Below, piece by piece: positions 24,737-45,262 of a stretch of DNA of 64,000 nt. Position 1 is the first letter of the stretch. Each line of letters opens with the position of its first letter. The notes under the pieces are model-generated. The model was given only the letters and a program-made list of their open reading frames with translations. It was not told the DNA's origin and did no database searches. The stretch comes from Rhodobacteraceae bacterium Water-Bin34 (lineage in GTDB: Bacteria > Pseudomonadota > Alphaproteobacteria > Rhodobacterales > Rhodobacteraceae), in contig FZLS01000004.1 of the NCBI GenBank assembly GCA_900197625.1, positions 1 to 64,000 of the forward strand. Direction: 5' to 3'. A program made the translations under genes and the position numbers.

Positions 24737-24760
24737 TTAAAGGCGAATTAGCGCCTTTAA
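24737..24760. terminator. Shared bidirectional terminator of rpoD and the DUF302 gene
   Basis: TTAAAGGCG (24737-24745) pairs perfectly with CGCCTTTAA (24752-24760) around a 6-base loop. It directly follows the rpoD stop and is followed by TATTTTATAG, a T-rich tail. On the other strand it overlaps the last bases of the DUF302 gene, so the two convergent genes share it. Confidence 0.75.
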
Positions 24761-25188
24761 TATTTTATAGCTTTAACAATAATTTTACTTAAGAGCTCTT
24801 GCACAATTTGCATTGGACCCTCGGGGTATGTTCTGTGTCCAATATGCACACCGATATTATCTTCAAAAACAAATATATTATAAGGACAATGTGCAATATT
24901 TAATGGGTCTAATTCCATTACTTGTCTGGAAATAGAAGCTGAACAAAATAAGAAAATATCTGCGGCTTTAAAAATTTCCACATTAGTCCCTAGATCTTTC
25001 CCTGTTCTTGAAAGCATTTCACCAGTATGACTCACATGATCTATTACGTATCCCTCTCCTAATATTGCATCTTCAACACTAAAAGTCGCGTCATCAAAAC
25101 TACCTTCATAATTATATAAAACTGCAGTTTGCGCTTTGACTGCACATGTAAAAAACAATGGAATAATACAAAAGGCCAAAAAACGCAT
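24757..25188 (-). CDS. DUF302-domain exported protein of the sox locus
   Basis: A 143-aa protein with a signal peptide (hydrophobic residues 3-16 and cleavage after V-K-A) followed by a DUF302 domain: Y-N-Y-E-G-S-F-D-D-A ... G-Y-V-I-D-H-V-S-H-T-G-E-M-L ... K-A-A-D-I-F-L-F-C-S-A ... C-P-Y-N-I-F-V-F-E. Two cysteines are kept in the mature part. GAGGAG precedes ATG 25188, so the open frame upstream to 25290 is not used. It is divergent from soxCD and shares with it the spacer holding a SoxR-like operator. DUF302 proteins often travel with sulfur-oxidation genes, but their reaction is not known. Confidence 0.82.
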   Translation of the reverse strand: MRFLAFCIIPLFFTCAVKAQTAVLYNYEGSFDDATFSVEDAILGEGYVIDHVSHTGEMLSRTGKDLGTNVEIFKAADIFLFCSASISRQVMELDPLNIAHCPYNIFVFEDNIGVHIGHRTYPEGPMQIVQELLSKIIVKAIKY

Positions 25189-25295
25189 GATGAACTCCTC
25201 ATTTATTATATAGTTAACATTCCAAGTATCTAGTATGTAAGTGTTTATGACTAGATTTATTGCACTTTCTAAGTGATAAAAATTTATCAAATGTT

Positions 25296-25315
25296 ATATT
25301 CAATAATATGAATTT
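25296..25315. promoter_or_regulatory. Candidate SoxR/SqrR operator before soxC
   Basis: ATATTC-N8-GAATTT at 25296-25315 contains an exact ATTC-N8-GAAT, the consensus I remember for SqrR. It ends 67 bases before the soxC ATG. A -10-like TAATAT lies at 25304-25309 inside it, and a TATTAT reads in the opposite direction towards the DUF302 gene. Binding would therefore block both promoters. Confidence 0.65.
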
Positions 25316-25381
25316 AACATTGTTTTATCTTTTTTTTATGTTAACATATCTATGTAATAATTCCAAAGGGACTTCTGAGCT

Positions 25382-26656
25382 ATGGGAACCAAAAAAAAAG
25401 CATCTTCACGGCGTGCATTTTTACGCGGCACAGCAGCTGCAATTACAGGTACATTAGCAACTGCAACAACTGCAAGTGAAGCAGATCCATTAATAACAAA
25501 TGTTCAAGATTGGGCATCTTTTACAGGAGATGGCGTTGATGAAACGCCATATGGCTTGCCAATAGAGTTTGAAAATGACGTCATCAGACGCAATGTATCC
25601 TGGTTAACAGCTGGTCCAATTTCATCAATAAATTTTACACCAATACATGCTTTAGAAGGTACCATAACACCACAAGGCTGTGCTTTTGAACGCCATCATT
25701 CAGGTGCAATAGAATTACAAAAGAAAGACTATAGGTTAATGATAAATGGGTTAGTAGATAACCCACTTATATTTACTTATGAAGACCTTGAAAGGTTTCC
25801 AAGAGAAAATCATGTCTATTTCTGTGAATGCGCTGCCAATACTGGAATGGAATGGGCTGGAGCGCAATTGAATGGAGCGCAATTTACACATGGTATGATA
25901 CATAATATGGAATATACAGGTGTACCCTTAAGATTATTACTAAATGAAGCCGGACTAAACAAAGCTAAAGATTTGAAAGATAAATGGGTCTATGTTGAGG
26001 GCGCAGATGCTTCATCAAATGGTCGATCAATTCCAATGGAAAAAGCGCTTGATGATGTCTTGATTGCCTTCAAAGCAAACGGGGAAGCCCTTAGAAAAGA
26101 GCATGGTTATCCAGTACGCCTTGTTGTTCCAGGCTGGGAAGGAAACATGTGGGTCAAATGGATCCGTAGAATAGAAGTATCTGATGTTCCAGTCGAAAGC
26201 AGAGAGGAAACTTCAAAATATACAGACGTTTTAGCAAATGGTATCGCACGTAAATGGACTTGGGTAATGGATGCAAAGTCTGTTATTACATCTCCAAGCC
26301 CACAAAGCCCAATTAAGCATGGGAATGGTCCTTTGGTTATATCTGGATTAGCTTGGTCCGGTCATGGAAAAATCACAAGAGTTGATATTTCTAAAGATGG
26401 TGGAATTTCATGGGAAAAAGCGCGATTAGGCAATCAAAGTGAAAATAAAGCATTAACACGGTTTTACTTAGACACTAATTGGAACGGTGAAGATTGGCTA
26501 CTCCAAGCACGAGCTATTGATGAAACAGGTTATGTTCAACCAACAAAGCAGCAACTTCGTGAAATTCGTGGTGAGAACTCTGTTTACCATAACAATTGCA
26601 TTCAAACATGGAATTTAAAAACTTCAGGCGAGGTCGAAAATGTTGAAGTATCTTAG
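25382..26656 (+). CDS. soxC: Sulfane dehydrogenase subunit SoxC (molybdenum cofactor)
   Basis: SoxC is the molybdoenzyme half of Sox(CD)2, which oxidises the sulfane sulfur bound to SoxY in the periplasm and releases six electrons. The 424-aa precursor has a twin-arginine signal (S-R-R-A-F-L-R-G-T, residues 9-17). The sulfite-oxidase-type Moco domain follows, with the candidate Mo-ligand cysteine in F-C-E-C-A-A-N-T-G-M-E-W (C150), and then the Mo-co dimerisation domain from about residue 300. Length fits SoxC (about 430). It overlaps soxD by 17 bases. Unlike the Paracoccus order soxABCD, soxCD here faces soxB. Confidence 0.95.
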   Translation: MGTKKKASSRRAFLRGTAAAITGTLATATTASEADPLITNVQDWASFTGDGVDETPYGLPIEFENDVIRRNVSWLTAGPISSINFTPIHALEGTITPQGCAFERHHSGAIELQKKDYRLMINGLVDNPLIFTYEDLERFPRENHVYFCECAANTGMEWAGAQLNGAQFTHGMIHNMEYTGVPLRLLLNEAGLNKAKDLKDKWVYVEGADASSNGRSIPMEKALDDVLIAFKANGEALRKEHGYPVRLVVPGWEGNMWVKWIRRIEVSDVPVESREETSKYTDVLANGIARKWTWVMDAKSVITSPSPQSPIKHGNGPLVISGLAWSGHGKITRVDISKDGGISWEKARLGNQSENKALTRFYLDTNWNGEDWLLQARAIDETGYVQPTKQQLREIRGENSVYHNNCIQTWNLKTSGEVENVEVS

Positions 26657-27653
26657 CTTTATTACAATAGGTTTTTTGTTAGCAACACCTATTTATGCTG
26701 ATGGCAAATATGGTTTAGGAAGAACCGCATTACCTTCTGAAATACAAGCATGGGATATAGATGTCTTACCTGATGGAAGAGGGCTACCCGCTGGAAATGG
26801 TGATGCGATAGTAGGTGAAGAAATCTTTGCAAATAAGTGTGCTTCATGTCACGGAGATTTTGCGGAAGGTGTCGGCAACTGGCCAGCACTTGCTGGAGGT
26901 TTTGACACACTAGCAGATGAAGATCCGGTTAAAACAGTAGGGTCTTATTGGCCATATCTTTCTACTCTTTGGGATTATATTAATAGATCAATGCCTTTTG
27001 GAGGAGCTCAAACCCTTAGCAGTGACGAAGTGTATTCAATTGTTGCTTATATATTATATTCTAATGATTTAATCGAAGACGACTTTGTTTTGAACGATCA
27101 AAATTTTTCAGAATTCAACATGTATAATAGTAAAGGCTTTATCGTGGATGATCGCAAAAATAGCGAATATTTAAATTGGTCAAAAGAACCATGTATGGAG
27201 AATTGTAAACCATCTTCAAAAATTGTTATGCGAGCGAGTGTAATTGATGTTACTCCAGAAGAGACAGCTACAATACAAAAAACAGAGCAACCTGTGTCAA
27301 CTTTGGAAAAAGTAGATGTAGTGTCTATTGATCCTGAACTGATAAAAGCTGGCAAGAAAGTATTTAAAAAATGTAAAGCCTGCCATGCGGTTGGTGAAGG
27401 CGCTAAGAACAAGTCAGGTCCTCAATTATATAACATAATTGGCCGAAAGATGGGCTCAGCAGATCGATACAAATACTCAAAGGGCTTTAAGCTAGCCTTG
27501 GATGAAGGTCGCATCTGGAATGAAGAACTTATGATTGAATTTTTAAGAAAACCAAAAAAATTCATCAAAGGCACAAAAATGTCTTTTGGCGGCTTAAAAA
27601 AAGATAAAGATTTAAATGCCATTGTTGCTTATTTGAAAATGCAGGATGAATAG
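26640..27653 (+). CDS. soxD: Diheme cytochrome c subunit SoxD of sulfane dehydrogenase
   Basis: SoxD passes electrons from the SoxC molybdenum centre to small cytochromes. The 337-aa precursor has a Sec signal peptide (cleavage after I-Y-A, about residue 20). Heme motifs are C-A-S-C-H at 67-71 and C-K-A-C-H at 245-249. The second domain ends in G-T-K-M-S-F, which provides the Met axial ligand, and A-Y-L-K. It starts inside soxC (17-base overlap), so translation is coupled. It is slightly shorter than the Paracoccus protein, mainly in the linker between the two heme domains. Confidence 0.95.
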   Translation: MLKYLSFITIGFLLATPIYADGKYGLGRTALPSEIQAWDIDVLPDGRGLPAGNGDAIVGEEIFANKCASCHGDFAEGVGNWPALAGGFDTLADEDPVKTVGSYWPYLSTLWDYINRSMPFGGAQTLSSDEVYSIVAYILYSNDLIEDDFVLNDQNFSEFNMYNSKGFIVDDRKNSEYLNWSKEPCMENCKPSSKIVMRASVIDVTPEETATIQKTEQPVSTLEKVDVVSIDPELIKAGKKVFKKCKACHAVGEGAKNKSGPQLYNIIGRKMGSADRYKYSKGFKLALDEGRIWNEELMIEFLRKPKKFIKGTKMSFGGLKKDKDLNAIVAYLKMQDE

Positions 27654-27700
27654 TTTTATTAAATCTAAAGTTTTTTGTTAAAATATTAACATAAATTATT

Positions 27701-27732
27701 AATAGCATAATCCTTTAAATAGTTATGCTATT
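27701..27732. terminator. Hairpin between convergent soxD and soxB (first)
   Basis: AATAGCATAA at 27701-27710 is perfectly complementary to TTATGCTATT at 27723-27732, with a 12-base loop. It lies 48 bases after the soxD stop. There is no long T run on the plus strand, so it may act with the second hairpin just beyond it. Confidence 0.5.
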
Positions 27733-27742
27733 GTTGATTATG

Positions 27743-27768
27743 AGTTTTGTTTTTTAAATAACAAAACT
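27743..27768. terminator. Hairpin between convergent soxD and soxB (second)
   Basis: AGTTTTGTT at 27743-27751 pairs with AACAAAACT at 27760-27768 around TTTTAAAT. It begins 4 bases after the soxB stop on the minus strand. Stem pairing is mostly A-T, so it is a weak terminator at best. Confidence 0.45.
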
Positions 27769-27771
27769 AAT

Positions 27772-29454
27772 TTATGCTCCTGAAACCTTTACTGAAGTAT
27801 TTGGATCTATGCTAATAAATTCTTGTTTTTTAATCCAACTTTCAGCAACATCCCAAATTGCTGGACCTTCAGTATTCTCATTAACAGAAGCCCATCCCGC
27901 AACTTGATAAGATTTATTTGCTTCAACTTTTTCACCAGTTTTCAGAATTGTCATATCTGTAATTCTTGATCCTTGGGGTTTTAATACATCTATTGAATAA
28001 CCCATACCCCCTACCCTTACCATGTCACCACCTTGTTGGTAATACGGATCAGGATTAAACAAATTGTCTGCTACATCTTCTAAAATTATATGTAAGAACT
28101 CACCTGACATTTCAGTGCGATACGCCTCAGGGTAAGACATTGCAGTAGCATTAAATAAATCTTCTCTCGTAATATCTTGACCTGGCAATAAGCTTGGCCC
28201 CCAACGAAACCCCGGTGATAGGGCAATGTCAGCCTCACGTTCATCAATTAATGCATTGCACAATAAATCATCCCAAGTACCATTGAAATTACCACGTCTA
28301 TATAATTCTTGATCCGTGGTCCCTAAAACCTCTTTAAGCTGATTTGCAAATGGAGCTCTTTGTTCATCTATCAATGCTCTTACATATGGATCAGGAGCTA
28401 TTACATCACTAAAAATTGGAATTAATTTATGAGAAAATCCTTTTACTTCTCCCTCTCTGACATCCAAGTCTAAACGAGTAACAAATTTACCATTTGATCC
28501 AGATGCAATTAACATGGTTGAACCAACTAAAACTGGTTCTGGCAGAGCATCGTGAGTATGACCTGTAAGAATGACATCAATTCCATTTACACGGCTAGCC
28601 AATTTTCTATCTACATCAAATCCGTTATGAGATAACAAAACTACAAGTTCAGCACCTAGACCCTTAACTTCGTCTACAACTTCAATCATCCGCTCTTCAC
28701 GAACTCCAAAAGATAAATTTGGAAACATCCATCCAGGATTGGCAATTGGCATGTACGGAAAGGCTTGGCCTATGACAGCAATCTTAACACCACCACGTTC
28801 AAACATTTTATAAGGCTCATATGCTGGCTCATCCCATTCATTGTCAAAAATGTTTGCTCCTAAAAATGGGAAATCTAAATTTTCTACAATCTCTGTTACT
28901 CGATCAATGCCCAAAGTAAATTCCCAATGAGATGTCATTGCATCAGGTTTTAATGCATTCATAACATTAACCATATCTTGGCCTTGAGTATGATGGGTAG
29001 TATAAGATCCTTGCCATGTATCACCACCATCAAGAAGCAATGCATCCGGCCGTTCTGATCGTATTGAGTTTAGAACAGTTGCGACTCGATCTAAACCGCC
29101 CATTCTTCCATAAGTTTTAGCTAGTGAACTAAAGTCATTATAAGTAAGTGCATAAGCTTCTGGCGAACCAGGAGTCATATTGAAAAGTTTTAAAAAATCT
29201 TTTCCAGTTACATGTGGTGGCAAACCATTTACCGAACCTATGCCTAAATTTATTTCTGGTTCACGAAAGTAGACTGGGTTCAATTGCCCATGAATATCAG
29301 TAATATGGATTAGTGTTACATTCCCAGTAGTATTAAATTCTAAAAGTTTATCCTGGGATAAACTTTGCTGAGCTGATGCTCGTGTAAAGCTCCCTGCGCC
29401 ATAAATGGCAGATGCTGCAACAGTTGCTTGTAAAAAATCACGGCGTGAAATCAT
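27772..29454 (-). CDS. soxB: Thiosulfohydrolase SoxB
   Basis: SoxB is the di-manganese hydrolase that releases sulfate from thiosulfate bound to the SoxY cysteine. The 560-aa precursor has a twin-arginine signal (I-S-R-R-D-F-L-Q-A-T). It belongs to the 5'-nucleotidase/calcineurin superfamily, with metal ligands in H-I-T-D-I-H-G-Q-L near residue 53, L-L-D-G-G-D-T-W-Q-G-S near 140, V-L-L-S-H-N-G near 275 and L-T-G-H-T-H-D near 300. The C-terminal nucleotidase-like domain is complete. GAGGAA is 8 nt before ATG 29454. It has its own candidate promoter and operator, and a terminator separates it from soxA. Confidence 0.97.
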   Translation of the reverse strand: MISRRDFLQATVAASAIYGAGSFTRASAQQSLSQDKLLEFNTTGNVTLIHITDIHGQLNPVYFREPEINLGIGSVNGLPPHVTGKDFLKLFNMTPGSPEAYALTYNDFSSLAKTYGRMGGLDRVATVLNSIRSERPDALLLDGGDTWQGSYTTHHTQGQDMVNVMNALKPDAMTSHWEFTLGIDRVTEIVENLDFPFLGANIFDNEWDEPAYEPYKMFERGGVKIAVIGQAFPYMPIANPGWMFPNLSFGVREERMIEVVDEVKGLGAELVVLLSHNGFDVDRKLASRVNGIDVILTGHTHDALPEPVLVGSTMLIASGSNGKFVTRLDLDVREGEVKGFSHKLIPIFSDVIAPDPYVRALIDEQRAPFANQLKEVLGTTDQELYRRGNFNGTWDDLLCNALIDEREADIALSPGFRWGPSLLPGQDITREDLFNATAMSYPEAYRTEMSGEFLHIILEDVADNLFNPDPYYQQGGDMVRVGGMGYSIDVLKPQGSRITDMTILKTGEKVEANKSYQVAGWASVNENTEGPAIWDVAESWIKKQEFISIDPNTSVKVSGA

Positions 29455-29467
29455 CTAAAAATTCCTC

Positions 29468-29487
29468 ATATTCATTATACTGAATGT
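29468..29487 (-). promoter_or_regulatory. soxB promoter -10 within a SoxR/SqrR-like operator
   Basis: ATATTC-N8-GAATGT at 29468-29487 contains an exact ATTC-N8-GAAT. Inside it, a perfect TATAAT reads on the minus strand at 29479-29474. The expected start of transcription falls close to the ribosome site GAGGAA (29467-29462). No good -35 is visible, which would fit a promoter needing little more than its -10 or an activator. Confidence 0.6.
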
Positions 29488-29490
29488 CTA

Positions 29491-29531
29491 AAAAGAAATA
29501 ACCCCACAACAATTTATTGTTGCGGGGTTAT
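29491..29531 (-). terminator. Intrinsic terminator between soxA and soxB
   Basis: ATAACCCC-A-CAACAA pairs with TTGTTG-C-GGGGTTAT (29498-29512 with 29517-29531, one mismatch, 4-base loop). On the minus strand the stem is followed by TTTCTTTTT. This is a strong rho-independent terminator at the end of soxXYZA, so soxB is expressed mainly from its own promoter or by read-through. Confidence 0.8.
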
Positions 29532-29545
29532 AAATTAAATTAAAT

Positions 29546-30391
29546 TTAGTTTCTTACAGATGGGCTTTCGACAGATAAGCCATTTCCACGAGATGCTACA
29601 TATAACTCTAAAGCACGGAACTCATCAGATCCCTCTTTGAATGGTGTTGCACGAATATTCTTCATACAACCCTTAAAACGAGCATGTACAGAATTCATCT
29701 TTGCATTTTTTAAGCGATATGTTGGAAATCCATTGATTTGCCCTTGTGATAAATGATCAGCTCGGATCATATTGCCATAATTATCTTCATGACAATTAGC
29801 ACAGGACATATCTAACTGACCAACTCGAGTGTAGTAAAGATCTTTACCTAGTTCGTAGGCATTAGCAGCATCTCCATCAACTTTTACATTGATTGCCATT
29901 CCACGAGATTGCAATGAGATTAATGAAGTCATTGCTGTCATCTTCCCTTTGGACCACTTCCATGGCTCTGCACCCATTCTCTCAGTACGACAATTATTAA
30001 CTAATGTTTCCATTGTATCCAATTTGCCAGTTGATGCGTTGTGTCGTGGTAATGATGATTTTAAACCTTTAAATGAAGCAACATCTTCATGACATGACGC
30101 ACAGGATTTTCCTTCAGATCCATCTACTTTTGCATATAAATCTTCACCTTGCTCTATAAATATAAATGAAGGATTATCAAAATCGTCCATTTGTAGAGCT
30201 TGTGTTTCGTTAGTTCTAAAACGCCATCCTGATATCAATTCATCTAATGCACTATCCGCAGGAGCTGCAGCTTTAGTAGATATATCCAATTCGCCATTAA
30301 TAACTAATTCAGCATCTTCATCAGCAATAGCAACTGATACGATGGTCGACAAAGCAAAAATGCAAGTCAGAGTTCTTGAGAACTTCTTCAT
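29546..30391 (-). CDS. soxA: Diheme cytochrome c SoxA
   Basis: SoxA is the catalytic subunit of SoxAX, which joins thiosulfate to the SoxY cysteine. The 281-aa precursor has a Sec signal (cleavage after A-I-A, about 23). Heme sites are C-A-S-C-H at 97-101 and C-A-N-C-H at 197-201. C242 in F-K-G-C-M-K-N-I-R-A-T-P-F is the axial ligand that carries the persulfide in this family. It is therefore the two-heme type, like those of Paracoccus and Rhodovulum. GGGAGGA precedes ATG 30391; the open frame to 30418 is not needed. It follows soxZ in the operon. Confidence 0.96.
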   Translation of the reverse strand: MKKFSRTLTCIFALSTIVSVAIADEDAELVINGELDISTKAAAPADSALDELISGWRFRTNETQALQMDDFDNPSFIFIEQGEDLYAKVDGSEGKSCASCHEDVASFKGLKSSLPRHNASTGKLDTMETLVNNCRTERMGAEPWKWSKGKMTAMTSLISLQSRGMAINVKVDGDAANAYELGKDLYYTRVGQLDMSCANCHEDNYGNMIRADHLSQGQINGFPTYRLKNAKMNSVHARFKGCMKNIRATPFKEGSDEFRALELYVASRGNGLSVESPSVRN

Positions 30392-30417
30392 TATTTGATC
30401 CTCCCTTGTTATCCGCA

Positions 30418-30738
30418 TTAAGCGACAGTGATAGTTTTGGTTTGTTCTACGGTTGAGCCGTCATCATCAGTCCATTGCATAACCAAATCACCAGTAGCTG
30501 GTACAGTAAAGCTGAACTGAAAATATGGGTTAGTTGAAATTGCTGGTTCAAATTTGGCGGATATAACTTCTTCCCCACCAAAAGTTGCAGTGAATGCATT
30601 AATTATTTTTCGTGGAATTAGATTACCATCCCCATCTTTACGACGGCCAGATTCCATTTTGTGATTTACTAATGTTTTTATTGTTACCAATTCTCCTGCT
30701 GCTGCAGTTTTTGGTGCTTTTACACGCGCTTTTGCCAT
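30418..30738 (-). CDS. soxZ: Thiosulfate-carrier subunit SoxZ
   Basis: SoxZ (106 aa) is the small immunoglobulin-like partner of SoxY in the periplasmic carrier complex. The sequence shows the usual A-K-A-R-V-K-A-P start, T-L-V-N-H-K-M-E-S-G-R-R-K-D near 25, the F-T-A-T-F-G-G-E-E-V strand, and Y-F-Q-F-S-F-T-V-P-A-T-G-D-L near 75. No signal peptide is present, as expected, because it is co-exported with SoxY through Tat. It lies 18 bases downstream of soxY. Confidence 0.97.
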   Translation of the reverse strand: MAKARVKAPKTAAAGELVTIKTLVNHKMESGRRKDGDGNLIPRKIINAFTATFGGEEVISAKFEPAISTNPYFQFSFTVPATGDLVMQWTDDDGSTVEQTKTITVA

Positions 30739-30756
30739 GTGATATCTCCTTTTCTG

Positions 30757-31179
30757 CTAGCCGCCACAGCCGCCTATTGTTACTTTTACTGTCTTTGCTA
30801 CTTGAGCGAATGAACCGTCTGCCATTTCAGCTAGTGCAATTACATTTTGTGTGCCAGCCAGTCTAATTCTGGTAGAACCTGACGCATCACTTAATTCACC
30901 AAAATTAAATGTCCCAACTCCTGGCGTTGGGTTTCCATCAGCTAGTATCATAACACGCTTTGCACCTGATGCAGAAAATTGAATTGGAACAGTATTTCCA
31001 TTTTCCGCAATTTCTGGTGTTGTTAAACTTATTCCACCTTCAGATACTGCACTTCCACCTGTAAAAGATTTGATTGCAGCCATTGTTTCATCTGATGCTG
31101 CAAATGCATTTAAAGGCAAAAGAGTGACTACAAATGATGCTGAGCCTAATGCTAAGGCATTTCTTCGAGTTAAAGACAT
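30757..31179 (-). CDS. soxY: Thiosulfate-carrier protein SoxY
   Basis: SoxY carries the sulfur intermediates on a C-terminal cysteine swinging arm. The 140-aa precursor opens with a twin-arginine signal (L-T-R-R-N-A-L-A-L-G) and an A-F-A cleavage site near residue 28. The mature domain is immunoglobulin-like. It ends in V-T-I-G-G-C-G-G, the invariant GGCGG carrier motif with C138. It begins 3 bases after the soxX stop, so soxXYZA is a tight operon. Confidence 0.98.
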   Translation of the reverse strand: MSLTRRNALALGSASFVVTLLPLNAFAASDETMAAIKSFTGGSAVSEGGISLTTPEIAENGNTVPIQFSASGAKRVMILADGNPTPGVGTFNFGELSDASGSTRIRLAGTQNVIALAEMADGSFAQVAKTVKVTIGGCGG

Positions 31180-31182
31180 TCC

Positions 31183-31641
31183 CTACTCCTCTTTTAATGT
31201 TAATATATACGCAACAACATCTTCAATTTGTTGGGCTGATAAAATAGTTTTACCCTCAAATTTCTTTAATGTTCTTACGCCATTTTCAGTACTGTAAAAT
31301 GCTGGCATTATTGTTCCCTCAAATGTATGCTTTGAGTTCACAACTATTCCTCTCAACTCTTCTTCACTCCATCTAGATCCTGCTCCATTTAATGCAGGCC
31401 CAACTTCTCCATGGAAAGATTGAGAAGAGGCGTCATCATTTACATGACAAGCCAAACAGTTACCTAATTTACGGTTGATTGATACTTTTTTGCCAACAAC
31501 TGGATCACCAGCAACACCAGTCAATGAAGCCATCACTTCTCCGTATTCACTGAATGACACATTACTTGGTGCAGTATCTTCAGCAATAACGGATGTGGAT
31601 ATTAACGTTGCCGATACGGCAATAAAACTGCGAAGCAGCAT
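31183..31641 (-). CDS. soxX: Monoheme cytochrome c SoxX
   Basis: SoxX receives electrons from SoxA during thiosulfate binding. The 152-aa precursor has a Sec signal peptide (residues 1-20, V-I-A cleavage). The single heme site is C-L-A-C-H at 62-66, preceded by N-R-K-L-G-N. The distal Met ligand is probably in G-T-I-M-P-A-F-Y near residue 110. GGAGGAAAT lies upstream of the ATG. It is the first gene of soxXYZA, and its 124-base upstream spacer contains a SoxR-like operator. Confidence 0.95.
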   Translation of the reverse strand: MLLRSFIAVSATLISTSVIAEDTAPSNVSFSEYGEVMASLTGVAGDPVVGKKVSINRKLGNCLACHVNDDASSQSFHGEVGPALNGAGSRWSEEELRGIVVNSKHTFEGTIMPAFYSTENGVRTLKKFEGKTILSAQQIEDVVAYILTLKEE

Positions 31642-31695
31642 ATGATTTCCTCCCTAATCCCTAAATTCTGAGATCAGGTTAGTCGCATAAAGTGA

Positions 31696-31707
31696 GTCTT
31701 GCAAGAC
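31696..31707. repeat. 12-bp perfect palindrome GTCTTGCAAGAC
   Basis: GTCTTGCAAGAC at 31696-31707 is fully self-complementary. It directly abuts the SoxR-like site at 31708-31727, on the soxX side. It would fall at or just after the start of soxX transcription. It may bind a second regulator or be chance. Confidence 0.4.
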
Positions 31708-31727
31708 AAATTCTATTTTTTGAATTT
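31708..31727. promoter_or_regulatory. Candidate SoxR/SqrR operator before soxX
   Basis: AAATTC-N8-GAATTT at 31708-31727 is a perfect 6+6 inverted repeat containing ATTC-N8-GAAT. It starts 67 bases upstream of the soxX ATG, the same offset as the site before soxC. A -10-like TAGAAT on the minus strand (31715-31710) overlaps it. In Paracoccus, SoxR is known to bind in the soxW-soxX spacer. Confidence 0.7.
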
Positions 31728-31765
31728 ATTTAGTAAAATGTTCTAACTTATAAATTTGATTTAGA

Positions 31766-32323
31766 TTATTTTTTTTGTTCAGCAAACTTTCTAGCATGAT
31801 ATTTTTGGAAGTGCTCACCACTTTCATATCCTTTTTCTAAAACATAATTTAATAAATTTTTGGTAGTATACTTACCGAAAGCACCAGGCATTGTGATGAT
31901 TGCATTTTGTGAAGCTGATTTTGTCGTATCAATATTTTCAGGCATAAACATTAAGGTAGGAGTAAAAACTACACCCCAGACTTTTGCAATTTCTTTTTCA
32001 GACATCACATTACCGTTAAAATCGATAACTTCATTATCTCCAAATAAATTCATTTGAACAACGAAGTACTCTTCTGAAAGTATTTTATGTATCTCAGCAT
32101 TAGGAAAAACATCTTCATGCATCTTTGTGCAGTAAATGCATCCTCTTTGTTCAAACATTATTAACAATCGCTTACCTTCAGATCTTGCTTCATCAAAATC
32201 TTCAACCATATCGTTAAATGTAAACCTTAACCAATCAGGCTTGTGCAAACCATCATCACCTATAGGTGCAGCATTCGCAGGGCTTAAAAAGATATAGACT
32301 AAGAATATCATAATTTTTTTCAT
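31766..32323 (-). CDS. soxW: Periplasmic thioredoxin SoxW
   Basis: A 185-aa exported thioredoxin-fold protein with a signal peptide (M-K-K-I-M-I-F-L-V-Y ... A-N-A). The redox motif is C-I-Y-C within M-F-E-Q-R-G-C-I-Y-C-T-K-M-H-E-D-V-F. The cis-proline loop is V-V-F-T-P-T-L-M-F. In Sox systems SoxW is kept reduced by the membrane protein SoxV, and the pair is thought to hold SoxYZ or other Sox thiols in the active state. It is 9 bases downstream of soxV and is separated from soxX by the operator spacer. Confidence 0.88.
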   Translation of the reverse strand: MKKIMIFLVYIFLSPANAAPIGDDGLHKPDWLRFTFNDMVEDFDEARSEGKRLLIMFEQRGCIYCTKMHEDVFPNAEIHKILSEEYFVVQMNLFGDNEVIDFNGNVMSEKEIAKVWGVVFTPTLMFMPENIDTTKSASQNAIITMPGAFGKYTTKNLLNYVLEKGYESGEHFQKYHARKFAEQKK

Positions 32324-32332
32324 TGAAATCTC

Positions 32333-33070
32333 CTATCCTATTGACGAAAACCAGGGTGCGTACTTTATCATTAAATTTGCTAAATAATTTACACTATTTG
32401 AAGCGATTAATAAACCAAATACAATTAACATCGCACCCATAACTTTTTCAACATACTGAATATAATAGCGTTTACGATGCATCCATCGTAAAAAGGGTTT
32501 AGCAAAAATTGCTGTAATTACAAAAGGTAGTGTCATGGAAAGGCCATAAGTCAACAATAAGATGGTTCCATAATAAACATCACCCATTCCACCAGCAATC
32601 ACCAGAATTGACGCTAACGCTGGGCCAACACATGGGGTCCAGCCAAAACCAAATGCTAACCCCATAATATAGGACCCCAACCAAGTTGATGAGTTTGCTT
32701 TGGTTTCTAATTTGGATTCTCTATAAAATAATCCAACGCGAATAATACCTAAAAAATGGAGCCCAAAAGCAATTAAAAAAGCAGCAGCAAAATAAGATAA
32801 TTCTTGCTTCCAAATTCTAAGGAATTGCCCCAAAAATGAAGCACCCAAGCCTAACAAAACAAAAATTGTTGTTGTTCCTAATGCAAAGAATATACTTGCA
32901 ATAACTAATTTACGATGAGTTGTGGGCGGAATATCTTTCTCATCTTTCAATTCATTCATACTAATGCCAGCAAGATAACATAAATAGAAAGGCACCATTG
33001 GCATAATACACGGAGATAGGAAACTAAGAAGTCCCGCTATAATTGCCCCCGAGAATGTAATTTCAAGCAT
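32333..33070 (-). CDS. soxV: CcdA/DsbD-type thiol transporter SoxV
   Basis: A 245-aa inner-membrane protein with six helices that moves reducing equivalents from cytosolic thioredoxin to periplasmic SoxW. The two redox cysteines are in helix 1 (S-F-L-S-P-C-I-M-P-M-V-P) and helix 4 (F-G-W-T-P-C-V-G-P-A-L), the standard CcdA positions. Placement with soxW and next to soxS identifies it as SoxV rather than a cytochrome-c-maturation CcdA. However, it could serve both roles, since no other CcdA is in the window. Confidence 0.9.
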   Translation of the reverse strand: MLEITFSGAIIAGLLSFLSPCIMPMVPFYLCYLAGISMNELKDEKDIPPTTHRKLVIASIFFALGTTTIFVLLGLGASFLGQFLRIWKQELSYFAAAFLIAFGLHFLGIIRVGLFYRESKLETKANSSTWLGSYIMGLAFGFGWTPCVGPALASILVIAGGMGDVYYGTILLLTYGLSMTLPFVITAIFAKPFLRWMHRKRYYIQYVEKVMGAMLIVFGLLIASNSVNYLANLMIKYAPWFSSIG

Positions 33071-33094
33071 CTAAAGCCTTGTCCTTTTAATCAA

Positions 33095-33120
33095 AACATA
33101 TTACATTTTTTATATATGTT
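33095..33120. promoter_or_regulatory. AT-rich palindrome in the soxV-soxS divergent spacer
   Basis: AACATAT at 33095-33101 is complementary to ATATGTT at 33114-33120 with a 12-base spacer. The central 20 bases (33098-33117) match the soxX site at 14 of 20 positions, although the ATTC and GAAT ends are lost. SoxR of Paracoccus binds in the equivalent spacer. This is a degenerate candidate operator. Confidence 0.5.
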
Positions 33121-33135
33121 AAAAAGGTATCACAA

Positions 33136-33507
33136 ATGAAGTCAATGCTATTAGCAGCAATTTTATTTTTTATTGCAAATGTGACTTTAGCCCAAGGCAT
33201 TAAATTATTAATGTTTGAGCAAGATGGCTGCTATTGGTGTGAAATATGGGATCATGAAATCGCAGCAATTTATCCTAAAACATTAGAAGGAGATGTAGCT
33301 CCATTACAAAGAATTGATATTCATTCGAAATTATCGACAGATATAATTCTTAAGAGTTCCCCACAATTCACACCAACATTTATTGTAGTAAGTAATAATA
33401 AAGAAGTTGGACGTATCGAAGGTTATCCTGGTGAGGATTTCTTCTGGGGACTTATAGATAAAATCCTATTGCAAATTCCAGAATATTCTCAAAAAAAAGG
33501 TGTATGA
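33136..33507 (+). CDS. soxS: SoxS-like periplasmic thioredoxin
   Basis: A 123-aa small thioredoxin-fold protein with a signal peptide (cleavage after T-L-A, about residue 19). The motif is C-Y-W-C in M-F-E-Q-D-G-C-Y-W-C-E-I-W-D. The cis-Pro loop is Q-F-T-P-T-F-I-V. In Paracoccus, SoxS reactivates SoxY and is encoded next to soxR, divergent from soxVW, exactly as here. Its stop overlaps the start of the GlcG-like gene by 4 bases. Confidence 0.88.
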   Translation: MKSMLLAAILFFIANVTLAQGIKLLMFEQDGCYWCEIWDHEIAAIYPKTLEGDVAPLQRIDIHSKLSTDIILKSSPQFTPTFIVVSNNKEVGRIEGYPGEDFFWGLIDKILLQIPEYSQKKGV

Positions 33508-34010
33508 TGAAAAATTTATTATTAGTGATTATTTTAGGCATTACCCCAACATATCTGGCACAAGCTGCTGAAGATGACGCATTTGTTGAATTTAAAGTTT
33601 TAAAACCAGAAATAGCAATAAAAGCTGCGATTTCTGCAATGGATTTCTGTCGCGAAGAAGGTTACCAAGTTGGTGTGTCTGTAGTAGATAGGTTTGGCCT
33701 TACTCAAGCATTTATTAAATCTCGCTACGCAGGACTTCATGTCCAGGAAACAGCAACACGGAAAGCATGGACATCTGTTAGCTTCAGAACTCCAACATTG
33801 TCTCTTGATGAGAGTACGCAACCTGGCAAAGAAGCTTTTGGTATAAGATTTATTTCCAAGCCATTGCCATTAGGCGGTGGCGTGCCTATTGAAGCAGAGG
33901 GTTCCATTGTTGCCGGGATTGGGGTATCTGGAGCACCAGGGACTGATATTGATGATGAGTGTGCAAGGGCAGGAATTGCCGCAATTGAAGAAGATTTGTT
34001 AGGATTTTGA
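33504..34010 (+). CDS. Exported GlcG/HbpS-family (DUF336) protein
   Basis: A 168-aa protein with a signal peptide (cleavage near A-Q-A, about residue 21) and one GlcG/HbpS domain: A-I-S-A-M-D-F-C-R-E-E-G-Y-Q-V-G-V-S-V-V-D, then T-A-T-R-K-A-W-T-S-V-S-F near 80, and L-P-L-G-G-G-V-P-I and I-G-V-S-G-A-P-G-T-D-I-D near the end. Family members bind heme (HbpS) or small ligands. It is embedded between soxS (ATGA overlap) and soxR (1 base), so it probably serves the sox system, perhaps in heme or redox handling for its cytochromes. That role is inference. Confidence 0.85.
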   Translation: MMKNLLLVIILGITPTYLAQAAEDDAFVEFKVLKPEIAIKAAISAMDFCREEGYQVGVSVVDRFGLTQAFIKSRYAGLHVQETATRKAWTSVSFRTPTLSLDESTQPGKEAFGIRFISKPLPLGGGVPIEAEGSIVAGIGVSGAPGTDIDDECARAGIAAIEEDLLGF

Positions 34011-34011
34011 T

Positions 34012-34344
34012 ATGAATTTAGCTGAAGAATTATCTGAAAAATTTGACATAGAGGAAATGTTTGAAAAAGGGCGTGGAGCAGCGAATTTTCTTAAAGCAAT
34101 GGCTCATGAAGGTCGCTTAATGATACTCTGCCATTTGGTAATGGGTGAGAAATCAGTAACCGAACTAGAAAATTTATTATCCTCACGACAAGCTGCAGTC
34201 AGTCAACAGCTTGCTAGATTGCGCATTGAGGGAATTGTTAGCTTCCGTAGAGAAGGTAAAGCTATATATTATTCAATAAAAGATGAGAAAGTACTCAAGT
34301 TAGTATCACTGTTATACGAAGAATTCTGTGCAAAGGATAATTAA
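34012..34344 (+). CDS. soxR: ArsR-family sulfur-responsive repressor SoxR (SqrR/BigR type)
   Basis: A 110-aa winged-helix repressor. The recognition helix is in S-S-R-Q-A-A-V-S-Q-Q-L-A-R-L (about 57-70), and the wing in F-R-R-E-G-K-A-I-Y-Y. Only two cysteines occur, C40 in M-I-L-C-H-L and C106 in E-E-F-C-A-K. In SqrR of Rhodobacter capsulatus, C41 and C107 form a tetrasulfide bridge with sulfane sulfur and release DNA. The spacing is identical. It is co-transcribed with soxS and the transporters and probably represses the sox promoters at the ATTC-N8-GAAT sites. Confidence 0.92.
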   Translation: MNLAEELSEKFDIEEMFEKGRGAANFLKAMAHEGRLMILCHLVMGEKSVTELENLLSSRQAAVSQQLARLRIEGIVSFRREGKAIYYSIKDEKVLKLVSLLYEEFCAKDN

Positions 34345-34353
34345 GGTTTTAGT

Positions 34354-35388
34354 ATGGAACCTAGCATTCTTGCTACATTCTTAGGCCTTGGATCAGGAGT
34401 TATTCTAGGATTAGCAGCAAGGTTAGGTCAATTTTGTACATTTGGCGCAATTGAAAGTGCTTATTTAGGCAATGATCAGCGCCGCATTCGCCTTTGGGGA
34501 ATCGTCCTTGGGATCGCAATCATCACGATTTACAGTCTGGACTCATTAGGGCAACTTAATGTTTCAGATACAGCATATCATCGAATTAAATGGAACCCAA
34601 TTGGTAGTATAATTGGTGGTCTTTTATTTGGGTATGGCATGGGATTAGCAGGCAACTGTGGTTTTGGAGCATTAGCAAAATTAGCAGGGGGTGATTTAAG
34701 ATCACTTATAATACTTATAGTTATGGCATTATCTAGTTACTTTATACTAAGTGGTCCATTAGCTAGCCTAAGAGTTATGATATTCCCAATCGAAATATCA
34801 AACGGGAGTAATGCTTTACCACAGTTAGCGAAAAGTTTACTTGGCATTAACCCAATAATAATTGCTTCATTAATAAGTCTCATATTAATTTTATGGGCAT
34901 TAAATTATAAACCTCTTCGCCAAGATGCTGCAATGGTAATTTGGTCAGTATTAGCAGGCCTATCAATCGCAGCTGCTTTTTGGGGCACCTATGAATTAAA
35001 TATTAGCAGCTTAGCTGAGATACCAGTACAGGGGCATACATTTACGGCGCCACTTGGAAAAACATTATTATACATGATGACTTCTTCTAGTAGTTCATTA
35101 AGCTTTCCAATTGGTAGTGTCATTGGAGTAATTTTCGGTGCATTCATTGGAAGCATAATAAAAGGCCATTTCAGATGGGAAGCTTGTGAAGATGCCAGAG
35201 AATTAGGGCGACAAATGTTAGGTGCTGTTTTAATGGGATTTGGCGGTGTAATTGCAATGGGATGTTCAATTGGGCAAGGTGTGAGTGCATTTTCTACTCT
35301 TGCAATCAGCGGCCCTATTACTTTAGCTGCGATTATAATTGGAAGTATTTTAGCTATTCGAAAAATATTAACGGGCTATCAACCTTAA
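34354..35388 (+). CDS. YeeE/YedE-family sulfur transporter (first copy)
   Basis: A 344-aa membrane protein with about nine helices. Cysteine motifs typical of thiosulfate transporters of the TsuA/YeeE family are present: G-Q-F-C-T-F-G (C28), L-A-G-N-C-G-F-G-A (C101) and A-M-G-C-S-I-G-Q-G near 310. In TsuA such cysteines relay thiosulfate through the membrane. It follows soxR by 9 bases, so it is in the soxS operon, and is often called SoxT. It probably imports thiosulfate or another sulfur species. No separate TusA-like partner is present. Confidence 0.85.
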   Translation: MEPSILATFLGLGSGVILGLAARLGQFCTFGAIESAYLGNDQRRIRLWGIVLGIAIITIYSLDSLGQLNVSDTAYHRIKWNPIGSIIGGLLFGYGMGLAGNCGFGALAKLAGGDLRSLIILIVMALSSYFILSGPLASLRVMIFPIEISNGSNALPQLAKSLLGINPIIIASLISLILILWALNYKPLRQDAAMVIWSVLAGLSIAAAFWGTYELNISSLAEIPVQGHTFTAPLGKTLLYMMTSSSSSLSFPIGSVIGVIFGAFIGSIIKGHFRWEACEDARELGRQMLGAVLMGFGGVIAMGCSIGQGVSAFSTLAISGPITLAAIIIGSILAIRKILTGYQP

Positions 35389-35587: not shown

Positions 35588-36640
35588 ATGTTTGATCAAT
35601 TAGGTTTTGATAATTTAACACCAAAGCTCGCTTCTGTAATATTTGCATTAGTTATAGGCTTAATATTCGGCTCTATAAGTCAGCGAATAAAATTTTGTTT
35701 TAGGCGTAGCATTGTTGGATCTGGTCAAGAACGGAAATCTGCACAAGGTGTATGGTTTGCTGCATTAGCTTCAGCAATAATTGGCACTCAGCTTTTAATA
35801 TTTTATAATTTCATATCATTTTCAGAACATCGTTTTTTTAATTCAAACATGCCACTTCTTGCCATTATTTTTGGTGGAATTATGTTTGGTGTTGGCATGG
35901 TATTAACAAGAGGATGTATTTCTCGGCTAGTAGTTCTAACTGGGACTGGCAACATAAGAGCTTTCATTGTTTTTATTGTTTTTGCAATAACGGCTCATGC
36001 TACTCTTAAAGGTATCTTTGCTCCAATAAGAGTGTGGTTAGGTTCATTTACATTAAATTTAAACGAAGTAACGGGGTTTTCAAAATTAATAGGTGGTCCA
36101 ATTTTATGGAGTATAATAATTTTTTCATTATCAATACTTATTGCATATAGATCAAAATCTAAAACTTCTCATTTAATATTAGCAGTATTTATTGGATTGT
36201 TAGTACCATTATCATATCTTGGAACTGGTTTTATTTTATTTGACGAATTTGATCCTATCCAATTGGAATCTCTCTCATTTACGTCTCCAAGCTCAGATTT
36301 ATTATTTTGGACCATAGCATCTAGTGCTATCCCTGCAGGATTTGGAGTTGGATTACTTGGTGGTGTATTACTGGGATCGTTTATATCTGCAATTACTAGA
36401 AATGAATTTAAATGGATAACTTTTGAAAATCAGCAGCAAACTAAACAATATTTAATTGGAGCATCATTAATGGGCTCAGGGGGTGTACTTGCCGGTGGAT
36501 GTACAGTTGGCGCAGGCCTCTCTGGAGTACCTACTTTAAGCTTTGCTGCGATCATTGCTTTGATTTTCATAGTATTTGGTGCCATTAGTGCAAAATATCT
36601 TATAAATCTTACCAAAAATTCCAATTATTCTTTTGCTTAA
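35588..36640 (+). CDS. YeeE/YedE-family sulfur transporter (second copy)
   Basis: A 350-aa paralogue of the preceding transporter with low similarity but the same cysteine plan: I-K-F-C-F-R-R (C37), L-T-R-G-C-I-S-R-L (C110) and L-A-G-G-C-T-V-G-A-G near 302. About nine membrane helices are visible. It is separated from the first copy by 199 bases, so it may have its own promoter. I see no ATTC-N8-GAAT there, only a 6-bp hairpin (35502-35518). In other bacteria a YeeE/YedE pair (PmpAB, SoxT1/T2) accompanies sulfur or persulfide metabolism. Confidence 0.83.
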   Translation: MFDQLGFDNLTPKLASVIFALVIGLIFGSISQRIKFCFRRSIVGSGQERKSAQGVWFAALASAIIGTQLLIFYNFISFSEHRFFNSNMPLLAIIFGGIMFGVGMVLTRGCISRLVVLTGTGNIRAFIVFIVFAITAHATLKGIFAPIRVWLGSFTLNLNEVTGFSKLIGGPILWSIIIFSLSILIAYRSKSKTSHLILAVFIGLLVPLSYLGTGFILFDEFDPIQLESLSFTSPSSDLLFWTIASSAIPAGFGVGLLGGVLLGSFISAITRNEFKWITFENQQQTKQYLIGASLMGSGGVLAGGCTVGAGLSGVPTLSFAAIIALIFIVFGAISAKYLINLTKNSNYSFA

Positions 36641-43369: not shown

Positions 43370-45160
43370 TTAGATGTTTTCATTTGTAAACTGCAATTTA
43401 GCTAGCCTTGCATATAACCCGCCTTGTGAAACTAATTCACTATGTGTTCCTTGAGCTACTATTTTGCCTTCGTCCACTACAACAATACGATCAGCTTTTT
43501 TAACTGTTGCCAATCTATGCGCAATTATAATTGTTGTTCGTGTTCTTGCTAATGCTTCAACAGCTTCCTGAACAGCAAACTCACTTTCTGCATCCAGGGC
43601 ACTTGTTGCTTCGTCTAAAAGAAGAATAGGTGCGTCTCTTAAAATAGCTCTTGCTATCGCTAACCTTTGTTTCTGTCCACCAGAGAGCATGACACCTTGT
43701 TCTCCAACAAAACTCTCGTAACCATCAGGTAACATTTCTAGAAAATTATGTGCTGCAGCTGCTTTTGCAGCTTCTATTACTTCTTTGTCACTGGCATCAG
43801 GCCTACCGAAACGAATATTTTCCATAGCTGAAGTCCCAAAAATTACAGGATCTTGAGTAACTATTGATAGATGTTTTCGGAAGTCCTCTCTTTTCAAAGA
43901 GCTGATAGGTTTACCATCCAGCATAATCCTACCAGATGTAGGATCAAAAAATCTCATTAAAAGCTGAAAGATTGTTGACTTTCCAGCCCCAGACGGCCCC
44001 ACCAAAGCAATCGTTTCACCAGATTCAACCTTTAATGACAAAGTATCAAGTGCAGCAATATTAGGTCTCGAAGGGTAGAAAAAACTTATTTTTTCAAATT
44101 CAAGTTCACCTCTAACAGGAAAATCTAATTGATCTGGTGCTTCTGGGTCTTTTACCACATCTTCTGAATTCAATAATTCAATTAAACGTTCAGTTGCTCC
44201 GGCTGCCCTTTGCATTTCGCCCCAAAATTCAGCAAATGCTGTTACAGATGACCCTACTAAGACAGCATAGATTACAAACTGCACCAGCACACCAGCAGTC
44301 ATGTTGCCAGCTTTTACATCTCTTGCACCTATCCAAATAACAGCAACAACCCCTGTGAAAATCAAGAATATAACAATAGCTGTCATCAAAGCTCTTATTG
44401 TTACCCTTTTTCGAGTAGCATCATATGCTTCCTCAGTTAGTTTTGCAAAAAGTGTTCGTGATACAGCCTCATGAGTAAATGCTTGAACAGTTTGAGAAGC
44501 TAATAAACTTTCAGAAGCATTTCCTGAACTTTCTGCGATCTTATCTTGATTTATTTTACTTAATACCCTTACACGGCGTCCAATACCAAATATTGGAATT
44601 AAAATAAAAGGAACTATTAATAACACTAGTCCTGTTAATTTAGCTGAGGTTATAAATAATAAAATTAAACCTCCTACAAACATTATTGCATTACGTAGTG
44701 CATACGAAAGATATGATCCTATTACTGAAAGAATTAATGTCGTGTCCGTGGTAATTCTGCTTAAGACTTCGCCTGTCATGATGCGTTCATAAAAAGCAGG
44801 ACTCATTCCAATCATTTTATCATACACAGCGCGCCTTATATCTGCCACCACCCTCTCACCAAGCCTTGTAACTAGAGCATACCTTACAGCAGACCCTACA
44901 GCTAAAAGCCCAGCAACAAAAATTGCATATACAAAATAATTATCTAAAATGTCTAAATCTTCACTAAATCCATCAACAACCCCACGAACCGCTAGAGGTA
45001 AAATTAAAGATATTGCGGCAGTAAAAGTTAACATAAATAATGCAGCAGTTACCAAAATTTTATAGGGCTTTAGAAATGGAATAAGCCCACGCAATGCTGA
45101 CACATTTTTACCTTTTTTTCGGTCTTGGGATATTGCACGAGTTGATTCAGGGGTGGACAT
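43370..45160 (-). CDS. ABC exporter, fused membrane and ATPase domains (MsbA-like)
   Basis: A 596-aa half-transporter. Six helices (about 30-310) form an ABC type-1 exporter domain. The ATPase domain has Walker A G-P-S-G-A-G-K-S-T, Q-loop T-Q-D-P-V-I-F, signature L-S-G-G-Q-K-Q-R, Walker B I-L-L-L-D-E-A-T-S-A-L-D and the H-loop I-I-A-H-R-L. The closest groups are lipid or multidrug exporters (MsbA, BmrA). The substrate cannot be assigned. Its promoter region faces the tRNA-Gly gene. Confidence 0.9.
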   Translation of the reverse strand: MSTPESTRAISQDRKKGKNVSALRGLIPFLKPYKILVTAALFMLTFTAAISLILPLAVRGVVDGFSEDLDILDNYFVYAIFVAGLLAVGSAVRYALVTRLGERVVADIRRAVYDKMIGMSPAFYERIMTGEVLSRITTDTTLILSVIGSYLSYALRNAIMFVGGLILLFITSAKLTGLVLLIVPFILIPIFGIGRRVRVLSKINQDKIAESSGNASESLLASQTVQAFTHEAVSRTLFAKLTEEAYDATRKRVTIRALMTAIVIFLIFTGVVAVIWIGARDVKAGNMTAGVLVQFVIYAVLVGSSVTAFAEFWGEMQRAAGATERLIELLNSEDVVKDPEAPDQLDFPVRGELEFEKISFFYPSRPNIAALDTLSLKVESGETIALVGPSGAGKSTIFQLLMRFFDPTSGRIMLDGKPISSLKREDFRKHLSIVTQDPVIFGTSAMENIRFGRPDASDKEVIEAAKAAAAHNFLEMLPDGYESFVGEQGVMLSGGQKQRLAIARAILRDAPILLLDEATSALDAESEFAVQEAVEALARTRTTIIIAHRLATVKKADRIVVVDEGKIVAQGTHSELVSQGGLYARLAKLQFTNENI

Positions 45161-45262
45161 ATATTCAGCTTTCAGAATTTACTAATATCGATAGCGCGCA
45201 ATAGCAAAAGCATCAAGACAACAATCTGTACAAAATGGGTTTTTTATTTTTATGAAGATTTT

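Follow-up and report, generated by a model that had tools for sequence, protein, structure and literature searches.

Candidate SqrR-type operators of the repressor SoxR upstream of soxC, soxB and soxX in a Rhodobacteraceae genome

The window analysed here, a stretch of 64,000 nucleotides from the marine Rhodobacteraceae bacterium Water-Bin34, carries ATTC-N8-GAAT dyads in the spacers before soxC, soxB and soxX. These are very probably the operators of SoxR, a repressor encoded in the same cluster (Table 1) that sulfane sulfur would release. A preliminary description of this DNA had proposed such a sox regulon; the placement of the sites, their recurrence in other genomes and their matrix ranks support that reading, the exact motif being only one form of the site. 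GCAT often replaces one half of it, above all at soxB. Both the type of repressor and the type of operator are already known, the operator from the sister protein SqrR.

Table 1. Genes, predicted operators and other features of the sox cluster in the window
Feature	Position	Strand	Basis or remark
soxC operator (predicted)	25290..25321	.	core 25298-25313; 32-bp imperfect palindrome, 24/32 positions symmetric; window matrix rank 2
soxC, sulfite dehydrogenase, first gene of soxCD	25382..26656	+	TIGR04555 587 bits, cut-off 420
soxD-like c-type cytochrome	26640..27653	+	two Cytochrom_C stretches; position after soxC
soxB, thiosulfohydrolase	27772..29454	-	TIGR04486 837 bits, cut-off 550
soxB operator (predicted)	29470..29485	.	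15 nt before soxB ATG; just after soxA terminator-like hairpin; matrix rank 3
intrinsic-terminator-like hairpin, soxA/soxB interval	29498..29531	-	15 pairs, then T-rich tail
soxA	29546..30418	-	TIGR04484 above cut-off
soxZ	30418..30738	-	TIGR04490 above cut-off
soxY	30757..31179	-	TIGR04488 above cut-off
soxX, first gene of soxXYZA	31183..31641	-	TIGR04485 above cut-off
soxX operator (predicted)	31710..31725	.	68 nt before soxX ATG; matrix rank 1
thioredoxin-like gene, soxW by position	31766..32323	-	Thioredoxin_2
CcdA/DsbD-like membrane protein, soxV by position	32333..33070	-	DsbD-type matches below cut-off; gene order
soxV-soxS spacer, upstream of soxS-soxR	33071..33135	.	without consensus operator; best matrix site ranks 209th
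soxS, by position only	33136..33507	+	no Pfam or NCBIfam match
SoxR, SqrR/BigR-type ArsR repressor, Cys40 and Cys106	34012..34344	+	structure-chain matches; conserved cysteines
YeeE/YedE-type sulfur transporter adjoining soxR, SoxT-like	34354..35388	+	Sulf_transp 199.8 bits
second YeeE/YedE-type transporter	35588..36640	+	Sulf_transp 164.7 bits

The exact dyads begin at 25298 (soxC), 29470 (soxB) and 31710 (soxX), just as had been described, and their assignment to spacers before these genes holds, the products of all three exceeding the NCBIfam cut-offs. The distance from site to ATG is indeed equal at soxC and soxX, at 68 bases rather than the 67 given before, and is 15 bases at soxB. The three spacers amount to 408 bases instead of about 340. 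By chance, 2.43 exact sites are expected in the window. Four exact sites are observed in the window, the fourth at 45163-45178 before an ABC-transporter ORF. This count is not significant because at least four occur in 24 of 100 shuffles, and a motif count in the window or in the genome (119 sites) was discarded as an uninformative measure of significance. The placement is significant: when the dinucleotides of the three spacers were shuffled 20,000 times, a site arose in the soxC spacer in 169, in the soxB spacer in 55 and in the soxX spacer in 179, at least two sites arose in 2, and no set had a site in all three. Since the three spacers were picked after the sites had been seen, this result counts as support only, and clean tests come from the other genomes.

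Comparison of spacers within the genus demonstrates that the sites are conserved where the flanking sequence has diverged. Among 5,376 dyads ranked over 46 spacers of this genus set, the exact dyad comes first with 22 matches; the next ones (14, 10, 9, 9 and 8 matches) are nested in or overlap the ATTC-N8-GAAT site, and the first dyad separate from the operator is the soxA hairpin (7 matches). The exact site occurs in 9 of 17 soxX spacers, in 10 of 16 soxB spacers and in only 3 of 13 soxC spacers. The form ATTC-N8-GMAT, which is found in 16 of the 17 soxX spacers, was chosen by visual inspection of the genus set before being applied to other genomes as a test.

The evidence from these other genomes, which comprise 76 loci, 46 of them named to a genus that is not Amylibacter, argues strongly for the sites. 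At soxX the exact dyad is present in 41 of 70 spacers, again first of 5,376 dyads, and it keeps this rank in the 46 non-Amylibacter loci (22 of 44). ATTC-N8-GMAT occurs in 46 of 70 soxX and 34 of 76 soxB spacers. With the gap set to any of the eight other lengths from 4 to 12, the same form is seen in 0 to 3 soxX and 0 to 2 soxB spacers; the non-Amylibacter loci alone give 26 of 44 and 23 of 46, with 0 to 3 and 0 to 1 at the other gaps. The density of the exact dyad is 2.02 per kb in soxX and soxB spacers versus 0.029 per kb elsewhere, a difference of about 70-fold. At soxB the exact dyad does not lead the ranking, being present in 6 of 76 spacers while the best dyads reach 13, and outside the genus the second half is mostly GCAT, giving ATTC-N8-GCAT. 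Quartiles of the distance from site to ATG are 64 to 89 at soxX (n=46) and 25 to 31 at soxB (n=34). With both halves present at the 8-base gap, and kept at orthologous soxX and soxB promoters, the sites would qualify as SqrR-type operators.

ATTC-N8-GMAT is missing from 24 of 70 soxX and 42 of 76 soxB spacers of the other genomes, and SoxR is encoded at the locus in 20 and 34 of these, respectively. The soxX spacers of Paracoccus pantotrophus and P. denitrificans carry ATTC-N8-CTAT in place of the GMAT or GAAT form, unlike the window, even though SoxR is reported to have binding regions in Paracoccus. Of 36 loci from beyond the family, 7 carry ATTC-N8-GMAT at most 200 bp before a gene of the sox set. 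The notion that half-site drift tracks changes in the recognition helix was set aside, as the helix is almost invariant and deviating cases are too few: the soxX consensus is missing where the helix deviates in both Paracoccus species (Ala to Val) and in loci L091 and L097, but present in L125, which also deviates.

Matrices built from either the 76 or the 46 other-genome loci rank the soxX, soxC and soxB sites first, second and third in the window. Because the matrix derives from sites chosen by their core, it is mainly the core that determines this ranking. For the positions outside it, the scores are 8.1 for soxX, 1.5 for soxC, 0.6 for soxB and -1.6 for the fourth exact site; the soxX site thus has clear support beyond the core, while that of soxC is mainly, and that of soxB almost wholly, core. 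In the density check proposed for the whole genome, the raw count (119 exact sites versus 61 for a reversed control) fails to separate sox from the rest, but among the 58 of these 119 sites that were scored, three of the five best are those of soxX (21.0), soxC (15.9) and soxB (15.1), the other two being a site before a SoxH-related gene (18.6) and an unassigned site (18.0). The SoxH-related gene is located on another contig, with its exact site, second best of the 58, 16 nt upstream. Including this gene, SoxH-like orthologues in the genus have the site in 11 of 16 cases; low-identity SoxH homologues, whose upstream DNA was taken from the open-frame start, have it in 1 of 13. The regulon is probably wider than the soxC, soxB and soxX set described before, and would take in soxH.

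The predicted repressor matches chains 6o8k, 6o8l and 13ct over residues 5-109 with E about 1e-38 (phmmer); the source table labels these chains as ArsR family, and we take them to be SqrR of Rhodobacter capsulatus. Its Cys40 and Cys106 align with the sensor cysteines Cys41 and Cys107 of SqrR (PMC9995734). Both are conserved in the alignment, Cys40 in each of 85 rows and Cys106 in each of the 81 that have a residue at that position. The recognition helix is near-identical to that of SqrR and differs from that of BigR, and the HTH_5 match lies above its cut-off. The soxR gene sits with the sox genes and is followed by Sulf_transp ORFs, an arrangement shared by relatives; in the window, an HbpS-like gene lies between soxS and soxR. 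Judged by its winged-helix kinship, both cysteines and the sox/YeeE neighbourhood, the protein appears to be an SqrR/SoxR-type ArsR repressor. For the BigR equivalog NF040642, it scores 94 bits, below the cut-off of 155.

The SqrR motif named in the preliminary description proved accurate, as ATTC-N8-GAAT is printed as the deduced recognition site of R. capsulatus SqrR (PMC9774250). The window sites share its core and 8-base gap, and the window SoxR is a homologous ArsR protein. The genes that SqrR is said to control belong to sulfide-dependent photosynthesis (PMC10451225), whereas the window sites precede sox genes and the regulator gene lies within the sox cluster. In this respect the system resembles SoxR of Hyphomicrobium denitrificans, Paracoccus and Pseudaminobacter, an ArsR repressor with two conserved cysteines and a soxS-soxR-soxT neighbourhood that acts on sox operons and responds to polysulfide (PMC10451225, PMC11582611), although the HbpS-like gene sets the window apart from these clusters. 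The portions of these reports available give bound regions without an operator consensus. BigR of Xylella and Agrobacterium, one structure of which matches SoxR at E 6e-19, and YgaV of Escherichia coli fall into the same subgroup of ArsR proteins. At ygaV, the region footprinted by YgaV contains a sequence similar to ATTC-N8-GAAT; katG is another target of YgaV, but one at which such a site was not observed (PMC9774250). In the literature searched, we found neither the footprint of these sites nor the soxX/soxB half-site bias nor the soxH extension.

It seems unlikely that the sites are real and conserved but bound by another regulator, be it a sox activator or a different ArsR protein. The genome does hold three other HTH_5 matches, one of them strong (C106, 40.8 bits), and the sites are retained in two incomplete genomes that lack a SoxR match (G013, 83% complete; G300, 62%). 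Nevertheless, SoxR is the sole match to itself in its own genome at E 0.001 or better, the motif equals that of SqrR, whose recognition helix SoxR nearly shares, and the site is absent at both soxX and soxB from G012, G179 and G216, three genomes of 97% completeness or more that have a full sox cluster but lack a SoxR match. Loci L089, L092, L107 and L112, which at first appeared to be missing both soxR and the sites, were dropped from this count because SoxR-like genes lie elsewhere in their genomes.

The ATTC and GAAT blocks could instead be promoter parts kept for RNA polymerase, with SoxR binding elsewhere, in keeping with the conserved TTGC block that the soxX site abuts and with the nearness of the soxB site to its ATG. 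We regard this as very improbable, as the 8-base gap is strict, the spacing between site and ATG is variable at soxX and different at soxB, and the same form precedes soxH. Chance matches in AT-rich spacers are hardly credible: the window count is within expectation and exact sites abound genome-wide, but the shuffles never fill all three spacers, and the sites persist amid diverged flanks and recur in other genomes.

A fourth operator, in the soxV-soxS spacer, was considered and rejected. An AT-rich dyad-like sequence is conserved there, but ATTC-N8-ATAT occurs in 8 of 67 soxV spacers versus 4 with a gap of 10 and 5 with a gap of 12, and therefore no operator is claimed; the exact dyad is present in 3 of 67 soxV spacers of other genomes. 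The window spacer lacks the consensus operator expected of an autoregulated soxSR promoter. Thiosulfate is reported to have no effect on soxR transcription in H. denitrificans (PMC11582611). The soxA hairpin is predicted in 48 of 49 soxB spacers with the operator and 36 of 49 without it (Fisher p 0.0008, ignoring relatedness); the hairpin test is loose, and a link between the two is kept only as a weak statement. Across 25150-33200, a scan found 7 terminator-like sites versus a shuffle mean of 5.6, and a sigma-70 scan found 20 promoter-like sites, below the shuffle mean of 30; promoters at the operators are what we infer.

The SoxR reading suggests the following course of events. A SoxR dimer would sit on each site and block RNA polymerase. 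The TTGC block beside the soxX site resembles a -35 element, and the soxB site probably overlaps the core promoter because it is so close to the soxB ATG; its position just after the soxA hairpin would place soxB under a separate promoter that SoxR controls. Once thiosulfate becomes available, sulfane sulfur, perhaps entering via the adjacent SoxT-like transporters, would bridge Cys40 and Cys106, and the bridged SoxR would let go, allowing soxXYZA, soxB, soxCD and soxH to be transcribed together. Tentatively, the operators might also form a graded regulon, in which each part of the Sox system responds to its own level of sulfane sulfur and soxR itself is unregulated. Its grammar, an equally speculative proposal, could consist of a near-symmetric ATTC-N8-GAAT at soxX, the regularly changed half of ATTC-N8-GCAT at soxB behind the soxA terminator, and separate soxC and stand-alone soxH operators.

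The predicted sites define precisely which bases to mutate. Should SoxR use the SqrR operator, the sox regulons of marine Rhodobacterales would become predictable from sequence; beyond the cluster, the matrix has already singled out a SoxH-related gene.

Exact ATTC-N8-GAAT motifs precede soxC, soxB and soxX at the positions assigned to them in the preliminary description. The soxC and soxX sites are also equally distant from their ATGs as it proposed, at 68 nt instead of 67 nt, and the 32 bp that include the soxC site form a palindrome in which 24 positions are symmetric. Three such sites had been regarded as striking against chance; their raw number is uninformative, since the window is expected to contain 2.43 and contains four including that at 45163, but their placement is exceptional. 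In 20,000 shuffle sets, all three spacers never carried a site together, and two or more did so only twice. The genome-wide scan suggested earlier yields 119 exact motifs versus 61 for the reversed motif, a raw count that means little. The signal is the placement of the sites, not their number.

Motif sites and neighbouring genes discussed in the text (matrix score and score outside the core)
Feature	Position	Distance to gene start (nt)	Rank in window	Matrix score	Score outside core
DUF302 protein gene, divergent from soxC	24757-25188				
soxC site	25298-25313	68	2	15.9	1.5
soxB site	29470-29485	15	3	15.1	0.6
soxX site	31710-31725	68	1	21.0	8.1
HbpS-like gene (haem-degrading family), between soxS and soxR	33504-34010				
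soxR (+)	34012-34344				
ABC-transporter ORF	43370-45160				
Fourth site, before the ABC-transporter ORF	45163-45178	2 (to ATG)	7		-1.6
Site before SoxH-related gene	G000:C156:16558	16		18.6	
C144 intergenic site	L156:1501-1516 (G000:C144:4270)	~254		18.0	

The genome comprises 3.6 Mb in 274 contigs, and the window is its contig C84. The cluster is ordered soxC-soxD (+), soxB (-), soxXYZA (-), soxW and soxV (-), soxS, the HbpS-like gene, soxR and two YeeE-type transporter genes (+), where soxW, soxV and soxS are named by position only. The conservation of the sites was surveyed in the window plus 20 loci (L046-L065) from 19 related genomes (18 share the window's genus, the other its family), with 17 soxX, 16 soxB and 13 soxC spacers usable. 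Among all 5,376 dyads (256 four-letter words, gaps 0 to 20), ATTC with gap 8 comes first, in 22 spacers; the runners-up (14, 10, 9, 9 and 8) overlap or nest within the same site, and the first independent dyad is a hairpin before soxB (7 spacers). The relaxed form ATTC-N8-GMAT, which was picked on these data themselves, occurs in 16/17 soxX, 14/16 soxB and 3/13 soxC spacers. The HbpS-like gene is present in 9 of the 20 loci, some of the remaining ones being incomplete, and DUF302 homologues in 10.

To extend the comparison to other genomes, contigs were scanned by SoxB alignment, which confirmed at least 508 places; the best 80 were kept with three plasmid loci, and 76 of the 83 were used after removal of seven whose genomes were already in use. 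In these 76 loci the exact dyad is found in 41/70 soxX, 6/76 soxB and 3/67 soxV spacers, and the GMAT form in 46/70, 34/76 and 3/67, respectively; with other gaps from 4 to 12, soxX gives 0 to 3 and soxB 0 to 2. At soxX the exact dyad ranks first of the 5,376, but not at soxB, where it scores 6 against 13 for the best dyads. Since some of the 76 are unnamed MAGs, the count was repeated for the 46 loci titled with the name of a different genus: the exact dyad again ranks first at soxX (22/44) and occurs in 4/46 soxB spacers, the GMAT form in 26/44 and 23/46, and other gaps in 0 to 3 and 0 to 1. Across the 76 loci, the density of exact sites is 2.02 per kb in the spacers of soxX and soxB versus 0.029 per kb elsewhere, and 11 lie within 200 bp upstream of soxC. 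Outside the family, 7/36 SoxB loci carry ATTC-N8-GMAT within 200 bp before a gene of the sox set. In the loci sampled, the operator is mainly a trait of the window's own family. ATTC-N8-CTAT replaces the consensus in the soxX spacers of P. pantotrophus and P. denitrificans.

The two promoters differ in the partner of the ATTC half: in the 76 loci it is GAAT 41 times and GCAT 5 times at soxX, versus 6 and 28 times at soxB. In the site-anchored soxX alignment (45 sequences), the information per column rises from 0.10 bits upstream to 1.16 bits within the operator and is 0.81 bits immediately downstream; there, a TTGC block directly follows the operator as a putative -35 element. A symmetric matrix trained on 80 sites drawn from the 76 loci places the three sox sites on top of every window position, in an order identical to that from 49 sites of the 46 other-genus loci; the fourth site scores far below them. 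Since the training sites were selected by their core, the core supplies most of the score, and the ranking supports soxX well and soxC and soxB modestly. The Paracoccus regions reported to be bound by SoxR include soxS-soxV and soxW-soxX. In the matrix scan of the window, the best position of the soxV-soxS spacer ranked 209th.

The encoded SoxR matches the SqrR chains with an E value of 1e-38 (PDB 6o8k, 6o8l and 13ct, which we take to be R. capsulatus SqrR). Its helix reads SSRQAAVSQQLARLR against STRQAAVSQQLARLR in SqrR, and the BigR helix differs. Cys40 is invariant in 85 SoxR rows and Cys106 in all 81 rows with a letter there. SoxR is the sole match to its own sequence in the genome at E 0.001, and one of four places found in an HTH_5 search. 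Among genomes that have a complete sox cluster and lack a SoxR match, no site precedes soxX or soxB in three (G012, G179, G216), each at least 97% complete; two incomplete genomes (G013, G300) do carry sites.

The motif had been taken earlier for the SqrR operator, and the same string is indeed the deduced SqrR recognition site in the excerpts of PMC9774250, the only one of the matches listed to contain it. According to excerpts of PMC10451225, the SoxR protein of H. denitrificans attaches to intergenic regions of the sox genes and polysulfide releases it, and binding regions are also reported from Paracoccus and Pseudaminobacter; those of PMC11582611 describe signalling from SoxT1B to SoxR and thiosulfate as without effect on soxR transcription. 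A SoxR consensus was found neither in the excerpts of PMC12423496 nor among the titles and abstract openings listed, and a printed one may exist; a term search of PMC9143464 gave no match. It is highly likely that the sites are SqrR-type operators used by SoxR, with our confidence slightly reduced because the ranking of soxC and soxB leans on the core. The observation itself is right, and its interpretation is very probably right.

Across the genome, 58 distinct exact sites of the 119 had sufficient flank for matrix scoring. The top scores are those of the sox, SoxH-related and C144 sites, together with a coding-region site (15.1). The C144 site, third-best of the 58, stands before a 312-aa ORF that is HlyD-like in appearance. 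Closely similar ORFs resembling phage structural proteins, with the motif inside, occur on two different contigs (stretches L006 and L160), and the genome bin may hold foreign contigs. The SoxH-related gene encodes a protein of 320 aa with a metallo-beta-lactamase fold; the NCBIfam models that match it best are related to SoxH (TIGR04559, 131 bits, under the cut-off of 280). ATTC-N8-GMAT lies upstream of 11/16 SoxH-like orthologues of the genus (at least 66% identity, the own one included). Four of these 11 (L251, L254, L255, L258) adjoin soxX, divergently in the three that could be placed, and 7/12 carry the site without them. Of 13 SoxH homologues below 40% identity, one has a site, an ATTC-N8-GAAT upstream of L270 (35% identity, genome G023).

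The kind of system to which the sites belong is already known; what is added here is the family-wide footprint, the half-site bias between soxX and soxB, and the extension to soxH.
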